Assembly: GCA_021836865.1 (NCBI GenBank)
Contig: JAKBHH010000003.1
Location: 26,024 to 90,023 of the forward strand
Length of the DNA stretch: 64,000 nucleotides
Direction of reading: 5' to 3'
From: Acidobacteriota bacterium
GTDB lineage: Bacteria; Acidobacteriota; Terriglobia; Terriglobales; Acidobacteriaceae
In this document: in pieces, positions 25,964 through 64,000 of the stretch
How positions within the stretch are numbered: position 1 is the stretch's first letter
Layout of the letters: every line of letters begins with the position of its first letter
The notes under the pieces: model-generated
What the model saw: the letters and a program-made list of their open reading frames with translations, nothing else
Told to the model about the DNA's origin: nothing
Databases searched by the model: none
Translations under genes and position numbers: made by a program

Positions 25964-26586
25964 CTATTTCTTCGACCTGCGCCAAGCCTAAGAAATTGCT
26001 GTCTTTCGCTACTGTCTATTTCCTCTCCCGCTTCCACTTCTTCCACGGGATCTAACCGATTTCCGTGGCTTATGGGCGGCATGAACCCTTGCCATCGATG
26101 CCGTTGCAGGAGAGTCGTAACCCGAGAACATCTGTCCATGTCCCGTGATTCAAATTGTACCAAACAAACCTGGCTCGGAGCAGATCGACTGGGCTCTCCG
26201 ACAACCTTTAATCCGCGAAGGGCAAACGAATGATCGCGATGGTCAGAATGCGGCTGGGCTGAATTGCGTAATGACTCCGATGCCGCGTCGTTCTGCGGTG
26301 AACGCGGCCCCCTTTTGGCTTTATCCGCGACTTCTCTCATGGGTTGATTCCTGGATTGAGGGGCGAGGCTAAGCGGGCCTGGAAAGTTGATTCCCGCTGT
26401 GCCGGTTGCGCTGAGGGTGTGGAAAGAGCGGTTGCCGGTCACGATCAGTCCCAGCCTGGCTTCGTGCATCTGTTTGCCGAGGATCTTCTGAAGCGGGTGT
26501 CGCGCGCTGGTCGGAGCCGGAAGCCTACTTGATTCTCTTTGGCCTAGCACCGGGCCATGAGCTGCTTGCGACGGAAGATATGGAGG

Positions 26587-57992: not shown

Positions 57993-58123
57993 AGCGTCGC
58001 CGGGACGTGGTGGAACACAGGCGACTGCGGGCGAAGCGACCGACTGGCACGATTTAATTCCGCAGAGCGAGCAGGTGGACGGAGATTCGTGTCCTTCGCC
58101 AATTCTTGTTATTCTTGCCGCAC

Positions 58124-58921
58124 ATGGAAAGCGCGGCGATACAAACTTACGGCCTGACGCGGCGCTTTGGCGACCTCACTGCTGTGGATGATGTGACGCT
58201 GACTGTGTCGCAGGGGCAGTTTTTCGGGTTTCTTGGGCCCAACGGAGCAGGAAAGTCGACGACCATCAAGATGTTGACAGGCCTGCTGGAGCCGACGACG
58301 GGCAGCATCGAAATTCTTGGCCGGCGATTCTGGTCGGGCGCACTGGAGCTGAAGGGGCAGATCGGTGTGGTGCCGGAAGGGATGGCGCTGCTGGGCCGAC
58401 TGACGGCGTCGGAGTATCTGCACTTTGTGGGCCGCATGTATGGGCTGGACCGAAAGACCACCAGCCAGCGCACGGAAGAGCTTCTTGAGTTTATGGATCT
58501 GGCCCATGAGCACAAGAAACTGGTGACCGATTTCTCCCACGGAATGCAGAAGAAGCTCGCACTGGCGGCGGCAGTGATTCATGCGCCGAAGGTGTTGTTT
58601 CTCGATGAGCCGTTCGAGGGCGTGGACGCGATTGCCGCGGGGATGCTGAAGGCGCTGCTGCAGGGGATGATCCAGCGTGGCGCGACGATCTTCCTCACAA
58701 CCCATGTGCTGGAGATTGTGGAGCGGCTGTGCAGCCATGTGGCGATTATTCACCACGGGAAGCTTGTGGCCAATGGATCCCTCGCTGACCTGCGCGCGGG
58801 AGTGGTTTCGAAACTGCCGGGCGAGGAAGGCAGCCGGACGCTGACGCTCGAAGAGATTTTTCTCTCCACTGTTGGCGCAGATAGCGGTGGGGTCGCGCAG
58901 GAGTTGTCATGGCTGGCGTGA
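58124..58921 (+). CDS. ABC transporter ATP-binding protein (ABC-2 type)
   Basis: 'FLGPNGAGKSTTIKMLTGLLEPTTGSIEILG', 'VLFLDEPFEGVDAIA'. Confidence 0.95.
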   Translation: MESAAIQTYGLTRRFGDLTAVDDVTLTVSQGQFFGFLGPNGAGKSTTIKMLTGLLEPTTGSIEILGRRFWSGALELKGQIGVVPEGMALLGRLTASEYLHFVGRMYGLDRKTTSQRTEELLEFMDLAHEHKKLVTDFSHGMQKKLALAAAVIHAPKVLFLDEPFEGVDAIAAGMLKALLQGMIQRGATIFLTTHVLEIVERLCSHVAIIHHGKLVANGSLADLRAGVVSKLPGEEGSRTLTLEEIFLSTVGADSGGVAQELSWLA

Positions 58922-60633
58922 GCGACGGCGGGCAGGGGTCTGCGGCGGGCGCGCACAAAGGGCCCTTCAGCAGACTGGCGCTCGCTCAGTATGCGACGTT
59001 GCTGGGGATGCGCTGGCTTGTACTGTCGAACACGCTGCGCACGCTGCAGGGTGTGGTTGAGTTAAGCGCGCGCGGATTGGGTCTGCTCGTCTACGGAACA
59101 ATGGGGCTGGGACTGAGCTTCGCGCTGGGCTCCGCTGCAAACATATTTTCCGCGCACGAGGAGTGGGCGATGCTGGCGCTTGTCTTCTGGGTGGCGCTTT
59201 TTATCTGGCAGTCCGTGCCGGTAGGTCTGGCCTCATTTCAGACACAGTTCGAGATGGGCACCCTGCTGCGCTTTCCGGTGAGCTTCGGATCATTTTTCCT
59301 GCTCAATCTGGTGGTTGGCATGGTGGACATCTCGACGATTCTTGGCGTGCTGTGCTCGATCGGGATTTGGATGGGGATTGCACTGGCGCAGCCGGACCTG
59401 GCGCTGTGGGCTCTGGCCGTGGTGGGACTGTTTGGGATCTTCAATATTCTGCTGGTACGGCTGATCCTGCTGTGGCTGGACCGGTGGCTGGCGCGACGAC
59501 GCTCCCGGGAGCTGGTTGGAACAGTCATCGTCATGCTGCTGCTTAGTCTCCAACTTCTGAATCCCGCGCTGCAATCGGACAGTCACCCACGGCGTCAATT
59601 GCCGCCGCGGCACTTCTCAGTCGAACCGGTGAACGGTGAAGAGAAGGGCATAGTGGCGCAGACTGTGCTGGCGGTGCAGCATTGGTTTCCGCCGGGACTC
59701 GCGGCGGTGGTGGTGCGGCGGGCATCTCGCGGAGACGCGAATTCCGCGGGAAAAGCACTGGCGGGACTTGGCCTGTATGTGGCTGCCGTGGCCGGGCTGT
59801 TGGGCATGCGGCTGAAAGCTGAGTTTCGAGGTGAAAACCTGGGTGAAGCGGAAGGGGCGGGCGCCGAGAGCCAGCGGAGCTACGGAATGCTCCTGAACGG
59901 GGCGGGGCCAATCGCCGCGGTTATGGAGAAGGAACTGCGCACCATGATGCGCTCGATGCCGCTGCTCTATGCAATGGGCGCGCCACTGTTCATGGTCATC
60001 GTCCTAAGCAGCCTGTTGCATAACAATGCGCCGGCGCGGTGGCGCGAGTTCGACTATGCGCTGCCGGGATGCCTGGCCTATGCGCTGATGGGGGTTTCGC
60101 AGCTCTTGTATAACGCGCTGGGAACGGACGGAACGGGCGTGCGCCTGATTTTTCTTTCACCCACGCCGGTGCGGACGGTGATGCTGGCGAAGAACCTGTT
60201 CCACGGGATGGCGTTTGGTGTGGTGGCCTGTGCGGCATGGGTCATGACCAGCCTGCGGATGGGCTGGCCGGACAATGTCATGACAGCTGCGACGGTGGCG
60301 TGGCTGATGTTCGCGCTGCCGGCAAACCTTGCCATCGGAAATGTGTTCTCGCTTGTGATGCCGCATCGCGTGGACCTGGGACGGCTGACGCGGCAACGTG
60401 GCTCGGCGGCGAGCTCGCTGCTAAGCATGTCTGTCCAGTTGTTGTTGCTGGGCGTTGGCGGAGCGGTATTCTTCTTATGTTCGATGAGTGGGCGGCTGTG
60501 GCTGGCGGTACCGGTTTTTCTGGTGCTGGCGGGCGCAGCGAGCTATGCGTGGCTCCGCATCTTCAATAATCTGGATGCATTGGTGAGCCGTCGAAAGGAC
60601 CTGCTGAACTATACGCTGGCCAAGACGGAGTAG
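58909..60633 (+). CDS. ABC-2-type transporter permease
   Basis: Large multi-pass protein overlapping the upstream ATPase gene. Confidence 0.85.
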   Translation: MAGVSDGGQGSAAGAHKGPFSRLALAQYATLLGMRWLVLSNTLRTLQGVVELSARGLGLLVYGTMGLGLSFALGSAANIFSAHEEWAMLALVFWVALFIWQSVPVGLASFQTQFEMGTLLRFPVSFGSFFLLNLVVGMVDISTILGVLCSIGIWMGIALAQPDLALWALAVVGLFGIFNILLVRLILLWLDRWLARRRSRELVGTVIVMLLLSLQLLNPALQSDSHPRRQLPPRHFSVEPVNGEEKGIVAQTVLAVQHWFPPGLAAVVVRRASRGDANSAGKALAGLGLYVAAVAGLLGMRLKAEFRGENLGEAEGAGAESQRSYGMLLNGAGPIAAVMEKELRTMMRSMPLLYAMGAPLFMVIVLSSLLHNNAPARWREFDYALPGCLAYALMGVSQLLYNALGTDGTGVRLIFLSPTPVRTVMLAKNLFHGMAFGVVACAAWVMTSLRMGWPDNVMTAATVAWLMFALPANLAIGNVFSLVMPHRVDLGRLTRQRGSAASSLLSMSVQLLLLGVGGAVFFLCSMSGRLWLAVPVFLVLAGAASYAWLRIFNNLDALVSRRKDLLNYTLAKTE

Positions 60634-60647
60634 CCTGTTGTGGGGTG

Positions 60648-61820
60648 TTACCGAGCGGATCGATCACGGAGGATTCGAAACGGGCGCACGACCAGATACA
60701 GCGGCGCGAGCCAGCCCGGTAGCGGCAGAAAGGCACGGTCTCGCTCGTTCGGTCTAAGAAAGTTGAGTGAGAGAATGAGGCGCATGCGGTCATATGTATC
60801 AAGGAGCTGCACGTTGTAAGGAATGCGACCGCTCGGAGTAGTGCCCGGAGCGCTAAAAAGGTTCAATTGAATGTGGCGCACCAGGTTCATGACGATCCTG
60901 TCTCGTTCAAAGCGGCTCAGCACGAAGGCGGGCACGGCTGCGCCAGTGAAGCGATGCGCGAGCAACACACCAAGTGCAAGAGGTCTTCCAAGTCCCTGCC
61001 GACGGGCTTCGCGGAGGGTGCGGTCCCAGTCCAGATCGGGGCAGGAGGCGATGACCTGCGCGACATCGAGAATCCAGATCATGCGCGACCAGATATGCTT
61101 GCTGCCATGCATGCAGAGGACGAGCAAGGTGGTCTCGGGACCCATGTCGGGAATCTTGGCGCCGGCGAGCATCGCGAAGCGTCGGCTGGGCCAGACCCAA
61201 TCCAGGCCGAGATTGCGCCTGAACCGCGGCTGGGTGAGCTCAAGACGCCAGCGGAGTTCAATGATCAGGCCGTCGGACCCTCGCTCGAAATGATATTCGA
61301 AGTAGTCCGGTGCTTCGGGCGTTCCGTCATCGAGGGCCATCGTCTTGAGATCGAAGCCGCAGCTGCGCAGCAGTGCCGTTGCGCGCAGCAGGTCGCAATA
61401 CTGGATAAGGATGTCGAGGTCGCCCGCGGGCCTGAGTGAAGGGTCACCATAGACGGAGGCTCCCAGGACGACACCCTTGAAGGGCATTGCGGTAATGCCA
61501 TGCTGCTCGAACAGGCTGAGGGTGCGAATCAGCTCCGCGGCGTTGCTTAGGGTTTGGATGGTGTTGCGGTTGAACTCAAGTTGTAGGTGGGCATGGGCGG
61601 CGGGGGGTATGGATACTCCGGACTGGTTGAGACGGTGAAATAATAGGGGAGCCATTCCGTGCTCGCGCGCGAGCTGGATAAGTTCATCCCAGTTCTCGAT
61701 GCTGGAAGCAAGGCGCTGGAGGGCCTCGGTGGCGTCCAAATGGGGCTGTGCGATCGCGATCAGGAGGTTTGAGGCGTTGTCATGCACTGTGGGAAGGCTC
61801 TCGATTCCTTCTGGCGTCAT
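60648..61820 (-). CDS. Nucleotidyltransferase family protein (PF14907-like)
   Basis: 'HGITAMPFKGVVLGASVYGDPSLRPAGDLDILIQYCDLLRATALLRSCGF'; helical C-terminus; internal Met start at 61820 inferred. Confidence 0.88.
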   Translation of the reverse strand: MTPEGIESLPTVHDNASNLLIAIAQPHLDATEALQRLASSIENWDELIQLAREHGMAPLLFHRLNQSGVSIPPAAHAHLQLEFNRNTIQTLSNAAELIRTLSLFEQHGITAMPFKGVVLGASVYGDPSLRPAGDLDILIQYCDLLRATALLRSCGFDLKTMALDDGTPEAPDYFEYHFERGSDGLIIELRWRLELTQPRFRRNLGLDWVWPSRRFAMLAGAKIPDMGPETTLLVLCMHGSKHIWSRMIWILDVAQVIASCPDLDWDRTLREARRQGLGRPLALGVLLAHRFTGAAVPAFVLSRFERDRIVMNLVRHIQLNLFSAPGTTPSGRIPYNVQLLDTYDRMRLILSLNFLRPNERDRAFLPLPGWLAPLYLVVRPFRILRDRSAR

Positions 61821-62390
61821 AGTTGCGAATGCGATGCCCACCGAGACGGAAGGCCGCCCCAGCGCGGGGTGCAATGTGCCGAATGAGAGGCGATGCTGCG
61901 ACCCAACTTTGGCTCAGCCGGGTGGAGGGCGCGAAAGCGATCATCCGTAATCTGAAGCACAACGATCACCCATCACCGATGCAGCCGGCGCGGTCCAGCC
62001 AGCAGCAATCGATGTCCCAGATGGAATGGCACCAGTATACCTTCGCGATGCGCGCGCGACCGCCGCGAAATGGAAAACGCGCCCGGGATGGGCGGCCGCT
62101 CTGCATTTCGGACGGCGCGCGACGGATGCAGCAGGTCATGGAAGTCAGGGAATCAAGATAAGTAAGAAGGTTACGCGTGCGGGGTGACAGTCTGCAGGGA
62201 CCTGAAAGGGCAGATGGTTGCATTGGGGCTTACATCGAAAGTACCCTGCATGTCTTGTTACCAGAAGTGCTTAAGGCATTACTAAATACTTGAAAATTAT
62301 AGATATCGCTCCTAACAAGGGCGCGGTATACTTCAACGCAGTCAGGGTTACAAGGGTTAGAAAAGACTCAACGCAAAAGGAGAGAACACG

Positions 62391-62834
62391 ATGCAAGTAG
62401 AGCGTACGAATACGGGTGATCTGGTCGTAAATGCGCTTCCAGATGGATCCAAAGTGATCGTTGACTCCAGGAACGACAAAGTCTTCGCGCTCAACGCGAC
62501 GGCCGGTGCGGCCTGGGATGCCTGCAGCAGTACGACAACCCTGTCCGAGGTGACAGCCAATATGAAGCGGACGCTGAATACCGGAGTGACCGAAGATCTT
62601 GCTGAGCAGGCCATCTTAAGCCTGCAGACGCAGAATCTCGTGACCGCTTCGGGCGCATCGGCGGGTACTTCGCGTCGCCAGGTGCTGGCTACCTTGGGCG
62701 CAATTGCACTTCCGCTGGTGGTCTCGATGACGATGTCGGACCAGAAGGCCTATGCGGGCGGTGCAATGTCACAGTCTACTTCCTACGACCGGCCCGGCCC
62801 GGTAGTCAGCAGGAATAACGGCCCCAGCTACTAA
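62391..62834 (+). CDS. PqqD-like domain fused to internal twin-arginine/hydrophobic segment and short Ser/Tyr/Pro/Asn-rich tail
   Basis: N-terminal 'VVNALPDGSKVIVDSRNDKVFALNATAGAAWDACSSTTTLSEVTANM' PqqD-like; 'SRRQVLATLGAIALPLVVSMTM'; tail 'GGAMSQSTSYDRPGPVVSRNNGPSY'; AAGGAG RBS upstream. Confidence 0.85.
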   Translation: MQVERTNTGDLVVNALPDGSKVIVDSRNDKVFALNATAGAAWDACSSTTTLSEVTANMKRTLNTGVTEDLAEQAILSLQTQNLVTASGASAGTSRRQVLATLGAIALPLVVSMTMSDQKAYAGGAMSQSTSYDRPGPVVSRNNGPSY

Positions 62835-63057
62835 TCGCCTCTGCTTTCATGCGCAGTGGCCTCGCCAGGGTCGAGTTTCCCCGGACTGCACGACATGCGG
62901 GGTGCTACGTGTATAGGGTGGCGCACGAAAAGGGCTCCGATCTCCCACTTTTGCGGCAGATTTCGCGAGAAATCTGAGGCTAGGATGGCGACCTGACGAT
63001 GGTCGCCATCTTCGCTCGAACCCTCCAGTGTGACCTTATAGAACTATTATGTAACTT

Positions 63058-63864
63058 ATGCCGGAACCCCATGTTTTGAGGATTTGCGCCTATGGGTGCA
63101 ATCTCCAGATTGAAACTGCAACAAGCACCATGTTAGAGGCCGCGGAGCGGTATGTGCTGCCGACGCTTCCCCGGACGCATGCCTTCACCGGGGCGCCTCA
63201 TTGCCTGGCTCGCATCGAAGAAGCGGACGGCGGATACGACCTGATTGCAGATGGCATCTCGTGTGCCTTTTCTCCAACAGCTACATCGATGATGCAATTT
63301 CTGATTCGGGTGCTGGATGATGCGGTCATTCGCAATCTACGCAACCTATACGCAGTCCATGCCGGGACGGTCGTGTGGAATGGGAGGGCAATCCTGTTGC
63401 CGGGCATGTCGCATGCTGGCAAGTCCTCGCTGGTGGTAGAGCTGCTGCGCAGGGGAGCGACCTACTACTCAGATGAGTATGCCTTGATTGATTCCAGAGG
63501 ACAGATTCATCCCTACCCGAGGCCTGTGCTGGTCCGCAATGGAAGGGCGTTTCAGCAGCCAGTGCTGCCGGATGAATGGCAGGCGCCGGTGGGACGCGAA
63601 CCTGTCACAGCCGGTTGGATCTTTCTGGTGAACTACCGCGCCGGTGGGGCCTGGAAGGTCGAGCCGATGGAACAAAGCGAGGCGGTGTTTGCGCTACTGA
63701 AGAACACACCCCATGTTTTGGCGGAGTCGCATGAATTGCTGAGCTTTTTTCATCGAGCAGTGCTGGGAGTGAAGGGATTTTCCGGCGAACGGAGCGAGGC
63801 GGGCGAAGCCGCGGAGCGCATCCTGGAACTCGTTGATACACCAGGGTCGGGCGCGATGCGGTGA
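63058..63864 (+). CDS. HPr kinase/phosphorylase-like protein
   Basis: 'LYAVHAGTVVWNGRAILLPGMSHAGKSSLVVELLRRGATYYSDEYALIDSRGQIHPYPRP': P-loop GMSHAGKSS and an HPrK-like SDE motif. Confidence 0.88.
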   Translation: MPEPHVLRICAYGCNLQIETATSTMLEAAERYVLPTLPRTHAFTGAPHCLARIEEADGGYDLIADGISCAFSPTATSMMQFLIRVLDDAVIRNLRNLYAVHAGTVVWNGRAILLPGMSHAGKSSLVVELLRRGATYYSDEYALIDSRGQIHPYPRPVLVRNGRAFQQPVLPDEWQAPVGREPVTAGWIFLVNYRAGGAWKVEPMEQSEAVFALLKNTPHVLAESHELLSFFHRAVLGVKGFSGERSEAGEAAERILELVDTPGSGAMR

Positions 63865-63974
63865 GCGTTGCGGCTAGTCATCATGGAGTGACCGGTCTCC
63901 CTGCGCTGTCCGTGGGTTAGGCTGTGAGCCGAAGAGGAACACAGTTCAGAGCCACAAGCGGAGAGGAACCGGTC

Positions 63975-64000
63975 ATGAAGGAAAAGGTACGATTTTTGGG
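63975..64000 (+). CDS. Start of a possible CDS truncated by the window end (MKEKVRFL…)
   Basis: ATG at 63975 preceded by GGAGAGG; only 26 nt visible. Confidence 0.3.

Follow-up and report, generated by a model that had tools for sequence, protein, structure and literature searches.

Two lasso peptide pathways are the closest described parallels to the locus considered here. In the bsf cluster of Bradymonas sediminis, the HprK-like kinase BsfK phosphorylates Ser3 of the core peptide, and BsfB1, a recognition element (RRE) of the kind used for ribosomally synthesized and post-translationally modified peptides (RiPPs), greatly accelerates the reaction (PMC10368454). In Bacillus pseudomycoides, PsmK phosphorylates a Ser of pseudomycoidin and PsmN attaches one or two hexoses to that phosphate group, although the hexosylation may be indirect (PMC8498205, PMC9266682). 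RREs associated with DUF2063 are in turn described as acting on DUF2282 precursors that carry Sec signals (PMC12710340). The 64,000-nucleotide stretch analyzed here (the window, taken from contig JAKBHH010000003.1 of the Acidobacteriaceae assembly GCA_021836865.1) encodes near its end a nucleotidyltransferase-like protein, a PqqD-domain protein and an HprK-like kinase. We think it reasonably likely that this set yields a small, exported and modified peptide, and that its precursor, the PqqD-domain protein, carries its own enzyme-recruiting domain.

All three genes were found where an initial annotation of the window had placed them, and the features on which our argument rests are as follows:

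60648-61874, minus strand: PF14907 (NTP_transf_5) nucleotidyltransferase-like protein, from its Pfam match
62391-62834, plus strand: proposed self-presenting precursor of 147 residues, made up of PqqD/RRE domain, twin-arginine signal and tail
62391-62654, plus strand: PqqD/RRE domain, residues 1-88, from PF05402 and Foldseek
62670-62756, plus strand: putative twin-arginine export signal, S94-RRQVLATLGAIALPLVVSMTMSDQKAYA-122, with the RR invariant, the AxA end conserved and TatC encoded in the genome
62706-62726, plus strand: A-L-P-L-V-V-S (residues 106-112), part of the signal and candidate site of in-cis recognition by the RRE, from conservation and the model
62757-62831, plus strand: variable C-terminal tail GGAMSQSTSYDRPGPVVSRNNGPSY (residues 123-147), proposed mature peptide, from the variability of tails
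62769-62771, plus strand: Ser127, the invariant Ser at +5 after AxA (25 of 25 copies), proposed phosphorylation site
63058-63864, plus strand: HprK/PEPCK-fold kinase, from the modeled fold and conserved residues
63403-63426, plus strand: kinase Walker A motif, G116-MSHAGKS-123, with G121 and K122 in 52 of 52 homologues
63472-63477, plus strand: catalytic acidic pair D139-E140 of the kinase, with D139 in 52 of 52 homologues and E140 in 47 of 52 (D in 3)

The genome contains exactly one PF05402 match and one PF14907 match, both within the trio, as is its single HprK homologue of the trio-kinase type. As the initial annotation had remarked, no separate precursor gene is visible at the locus, and none is needed. 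The same annotation had expected the locus to run on past position 64000. The contig, 90,023 bases long with the window spanning its positions 26,024 to 90,023, stops there, so that no further genes can be read in this genome; judged from relatives, however, the three-gene set is complete as seen.

The PqqD-domain protein scores 26.8 bits against PF05402 (gathering score 23.4) and matches no NCBIfam family above its cut-off. An AlphaFold2 model built from 24 homologues, with a mean predicted local distance difference test score (pLDDT) of 82, has the winged-helix fold of an RRE, and its best solved matches in Foldseek are the TigE RRE, TbiB1 with its leader, FusB1 with its leader, and PqqD. 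With E-values of 0.0075 to 0.5 these matches are weak, which the small size of the domain would lead one to expect, but the top of the list consists almost entirely of RRE proteins. Downstream of residue 88 the protein continues as SRRQVLATLGAIALPLVVSMTMSDQKAYA, a stretch with the features of a twin-arginine signal ending in AxA: (S/T)RRx is followed by two hydrophobic residues, a moderately hydrophobic stretch and AxA, as in substrates of twin-arginine translocation (Tat). Within this signal A106, P108 and V110 are invariant (24 sequences), and across the phylum 63 of 72 signals contain P[LVIMA][VIAL]x[STAV][LIMA]. Only five further Tat-like signals were found in these loci, and none has the Pro motif at offset 13-17, a control too small to carry weight. 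The model places, with good confidence, a strand at residues 110-114 and a helix at 115-125, and the block 111-120 has a pLDDT of 88. Since a strand requires a partner, the signal probably packs against the protein's own RRE domain.

What follows the signal varies in a way that points to a product. Among 25 intact copies of the PqqD protein in Acidobacteriaceae, the family to which the named close relatives in GTDB belong, mean pairwise identity is 55% for the PqqD part and 63% from RR to AxA, and falls past +5 to 27%, against 25% for shuffled tails. Position +3 after AxA is Ala in 22 of the 25, and the distance from the conserved signal Pro (Pro108) to the +5 Ser is 19 in every copy. Precursors with differing tails also occur in tandem (four in L021, two each in L020 and L042). 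A fully random tail can be dismissed: seven genomes, including that of the window, share the sub-class [RH]Px[AP]x[VI][SP][KRH], and KPCATA-type tails are common to L021 and L042. The existence of such sub-classes implies that the tails are under selection.

The layout of RRE, RR, hydrophobic stretch, AxA and tail is kept well outside the family too. When 396 Acidobacteriota genomes were searched with a profile, 42 gave good precursor matches, and 40 stretches were fetched and inspected. Most of the tails are rich in Cys (42 of 48), and 41 of the 42 Cys-rich tails have an even number of Cys residues (6, 8 or 10), which would arise by chance with a probability of about 1e-11 and is the expectation for disulfide-bonded exported peptides. 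In 39 of the 42 the first Cys is preceded within three residues by a Ser or Thr, against 43% by chance. In these Cys-type proteins the signal Pro precedes the Ser/Thr by 15-16 residues (32 of 34) and the first Cys by 16-17 residues (34 of 36). The 15-16 residue interval agrees with the 16 steps that separate Pro(-14) from the phosphorylated Ser3 in the lasso precursor BsfA (PMC10368454). Six loci (L045, L077, L082, L088, L092 and L100; not the window) have the spacing typical of knottins, 6-5-0-3-x (C6-5-0-3-3/4/5/6), and we propose these knottin-like tails as secreted products. Neither the window PqqD protein nor the Cys-type protein of L045 has a match among 72,556 plasmids. Two unusual proteins were also encountered: in L106 (5857-6237 and beyond, plus strand) a precursor-like protein shares the QGAGSG start of the tail and continues into long DPGTTT and GGGDT repeats, and in L112 (5991-6236, plus strand) an RRE-like protein with RR ends in a long poly-Thr tail, with no kinase or nucleotidyltransferase nearby.

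The assignment of the kinase rests on fold and catalytic residues more than on family scores. The PF14907 and PF05402 assignments of the initial annotation were confirmed, but the third, to HprK, stayed below cut-off: the protein scores 17.3 bits against PF07475 (cut-off 33.3), and its best NCBIfam match, TIGR04352 (HprK_rel_A, HprK-related kinase A), reaches 56.5 bits, well short of the 200 set as cut-off for that family. Yet its AlphaFold2 model (pLDDT 91) retrieves phosphoenolpyruvate carboxykinases (PEPCKs) and HprK/P in Foldseek, and H101 is kept, like K122 and D139, in 52 of 52 homologues. The counterpart of the acidic pair in BsfK is D186-D187 (PMC10368454).

The nucleotidyltransferase-like protein matches PF14907 with 187 bits (E 5.3e-55), and K133-G134, R148 and G151-D152-x-D154 are invariant in 16 aligned homologues. 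Alignment of homologue starts indicates that translation probably begins at an ATG near 61820 rather than at the TTG at 61874. This gene is not an obligatory part of the set, as it is missing upstream of the precursor in L025 and L027, the two closest relatives. Thus precursor and kinase form the core and the nucleotidyltransferase is an addition.

Co-occurrence agrees with this division. The order seen in the window, a nucleotidyltransferase divergent from one or more precursors that are followed by the kinase, recurs in 14 distinct Acidobacteriaceae loci. When all frames from 59 loci were clustered, three families were common throughout, namely the precursor (58 loci), the kinase (48) and the nucleotidyltransferase (44), with many of the gaps explained by contig ends or separate loci. 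The other shared groups listed reflected a family-specific neighborhood of polysaccharide and housekeeping genes, or reverse-strand frames. At the level of genomes, a strong kinase match (E<1e-28) was present in 42 of 42 with a precursor and in 3 of 354 others (Fisher p 1.5e-53, kinship ignored), and among 61 nearer genomes (E<1e-25) in 10 of 10 with a precursor and 0 of 51 without (p 1e-11, kinship again ignored). The association of the trio put forward in the initial annotation is therefore borne out, with precursor and kinase as its constant members and the nucleotidyltransferase frequent but dispensable. No hidden PqqD-type partner was found near the kinases of three kinase-only genomes or near five separate kinase loci. 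Pairs of kinase and nucleotidyltransferase genes to which no PqqD-type gene adjoins were seen in L118, L122 and L123; these may act on a substrate encoded elsewhere or on one of a different type.

The suggestion that the substrate is the C-terminal tail of the PqqD protein itself is strongly supported by comparison, through an architecture shared across the phylum, the occurrence of the kinase in all 42 precursor genomes, variable tails with an invariant Ser, and the tandem copies. The initial annotation had not remarked on the twin-arginine signal that separates domain and tail, on the invariant Ser or on the dispensability of the nucleotidyltransferase. What the sequences themselves establish is the layout and its conservation, the co-occurrence of the genes and the preservation of catalytic residues. 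With BsfK/BsfB1 and PsmK/PsmN as precedents, we favor a scheme in which the RRE presents the tail. The N-terminal PqqD/RRE domain would take the place of the separate B1/RRE protein of lasso pathways and bind the conserved (A)LPxVxS segment in the twin-arginine signal of the same protein, so that the tail is offered to the HprK-like kinase. The kinase would then phosphorylate the invariant Ser127 or, in relatives with Cys-rich tails, the Ser/Thr found shortly ahead of the first Cys, and the PF14907 protein, where present, would transfer a sugar (or a nucleotide or sugar phosphate) to the Ser phosphate. Analogy suggests both the phosphorylation and the sugar capping. The signal would subsequently direct the protein to Tat (or Sec), with Tat being the probable route, and signal peptidase would cut after AxA, both steps being predicted from motifs only. 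A modified peptide of 10-65 residues would thus be released outside the inner membrane, as a disulfide-bonded mini-protein in most of the phylum. This layout of ribosomal precursor, RRE guidance and core fits the RiPP scheme; whether the product serves as a secreted agent of competition or as a surface peptide is a guess.

The proposed system resembles that of BsfK and BsfB1 in its HprK-like kinase, which there acts on a Ser early in the core in dependence on a PqqD-type RRE and in a cluster that includes a nucleotidyltransferase gene, bsfN. It differs in that the RRE is fused to the substrate, a twin-arginine signal replaces the ordinary leader, and B2, cyclase and ABC exporter are not members of the set. 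With PsmK and PsmN it shares the pairing of an HprK-like kinase with a nucleotidyltransferase-like protein, whereas pseudomycoidin is modified at the C-terminal Ser of a lasso peptide and the Ser considered here lies near the proposed mature N-terminus with no lasso machinery at hand. Compared by description only, the DUF2063/DUF2282 systems likewise have an RRE acting on a precursor with a secretion signal, but with separate proteins, a Sec signal and other enzymes (PMC12710340).

Several points weigh against this interpretation. The chemistry of the tail, its export and its cleavage are reconstructions from sequence and analogy, and docking of the signal on the RRE is suggested by a single AlphaFold2 model. 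A folded domain of 88 residues ahead of a Tat signal is unusual, and to our knowledge lasso kinases mostly modify a C-terminal Ser, with only BsfK modifying Ser3. The +5 Ser is so near the cleavage site that signal peptidase or folding could account for its conservation. One homologue, L098, stops two residues past AxA and has no tail, the two closest relatives do without the nucleotidyltransferase, and a few genomes carry the kinase, with or without the nucleotidyltransferase, apart from any such precursor. The few kinase and nucleotidyltransferase pairs set apart from the PqqD gene, together with the hydrophobic stretch behind the RRE domain, would also suit a membrane-anchored adaptor, in which the C-terminal anchor stays uncleaved, the RRE serves unlinked substrates and the tail is a periplasmic stub; as the window genome encodes a single PqqD protein, this would be its only adaptor. 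We regard this as improbable, though the most serious of the alternatives, since the tail is marked as the product by an invariant twin Arg and AxA, by an invariant Ser at fixed spacing, by tandem copies whose differences lie chiefly in the tail, and by the even Cys numbers and the knottin-like spacing.

A role in surface polysaccharide assembly, with the kinase and nucleotidyltransferase building a phospho-sugar link on an exported peptide that acts as glycan anchor or primer, seems to us somewhat less probable again. It stays in consideration through the glycan-gene neighbors of family f30, in which the trio lies beside a WecA-like transferase, a UDP-GlcNAc 2-epimerase and two glycosyltransferases, and of L029, in which a GT2 gene separates the precursor from the kinase and the precursor tail is rich in Thr, Ser, Pro and Ala. 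Most other loci, including the window, have no such neighbors, however, and the tails are far too divergent for a single acceptor role. The likeness to lasso clusters drawn in the initial annotation applies to the tailoring enzymes, which are those of the pseudomycoidin and bsf clusters, and the RRE is nearest to lasso B1 by fold, fused here to signal and tail. Beyond this the likeness fails: the lasso B2 peptidase (PF13471) is absent from all seven trio genomes examined, and no additional gene is conserved over the 59 loci, which excludes a lasso cluster as such. No asparagine synthetase-like family is shared across the 59 loci as a cyclase beside the set, whole genomes not having been searched for the cyclase family. 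A relative or remnant of a lasso cluster that has lost cyclase and B2 is very unlikely in our view, given a precursor architecture unlike that of lasso precursors and a conservation across many families that is not remnant-like. Just as unlikely is a phospho-switch, in which a metabolite-sensing kinase regulates the PqqD-domain protein by phosphorylation and nothing is secreted. HprK proteins are classical regulators and the winged helix resembles DNA-binding domains, but an export signal, variable tails and Cys-rich mini-proteins do not fit a switch.

In the RRE-dependent pathways known so far, the recognition domain occurs as a stand-alone protein or within an enzyme. In the proposed self-presenting precursor the substrate itself appears to contain it, and the leader apparently serves as the Tat signal too. 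The tailoring enzymes and the RRE are of known kinds; the combination of RRE, Tat-type signal and peptide fused in one precursor is apparently undescribed, as is its spread over a phylum with disulfide-rich products. The literature, consulted largely where freely available, yielded no description of a PqqD protein with a twin-arginine signal, an RRE-precursor fusion, or an HprK-related kinase or knottin of Acidobacteria that matches the system. There is a fair chance that it will deserve a class of its own once the chemistry is established. A bolder proposal, possible but in our judgment doubtful, is a phylum-wide class in which each precursor's own RRE binds the Tat signal as its leader and thereby delays export until an HprK-like kinase, often together with a sugar-transferring nucleotidyltransferase, has modified the Ser/Thr at its fixed distance, with products that include disulfide-rich, knottin-like phospho-mini-proteins. 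If the self-presenting scheme is correct, the combination of PqqD, RR, AxA and tail offers a genome-mining handle on a large set of peptides, knottin-like ones included, from a little-studied soil phylum, and a system of two or three genes is small enough for work in E. coli. It has been reported that 21% of PF05402 proteins exceed the size of a discrete RRE with no other Pfam annotation (PMC12710340), and fusions of the type seen in the window may account for some of these.

The remaining observations concern neighboring genes. In L029 (6464-7660, 8568-9386 and 9940-10719), and also in L041, the GT2 gene between precursor and kinase is accompanied by a DUF7164 gene and by a further copy of the kinase gene, the latter with a stop codon inside the matched stretch. 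Just ahead of the trio in the window lies an ABC exporter pair (58106-60633, plus strand), consisting of an ATPase (58106-58921) and a permease with 12 transmembrane segments (58909-60633), convergent with the nucleotidyltransferase gene and 15 bases away from it. This pair can be set aside as a member of the set, as synteny extends only to the closest relative, L025, and L027 has the set but not the exporter. In both of these relatives (L025 4815-8674, L027 7838-11754) NiFe-hydrogenase-like genes come after the kinase on the opposite strand, their small subunit having a twin-arginine signal of its own, and such genes are probably what lies past position 64000 in the window genome as well.

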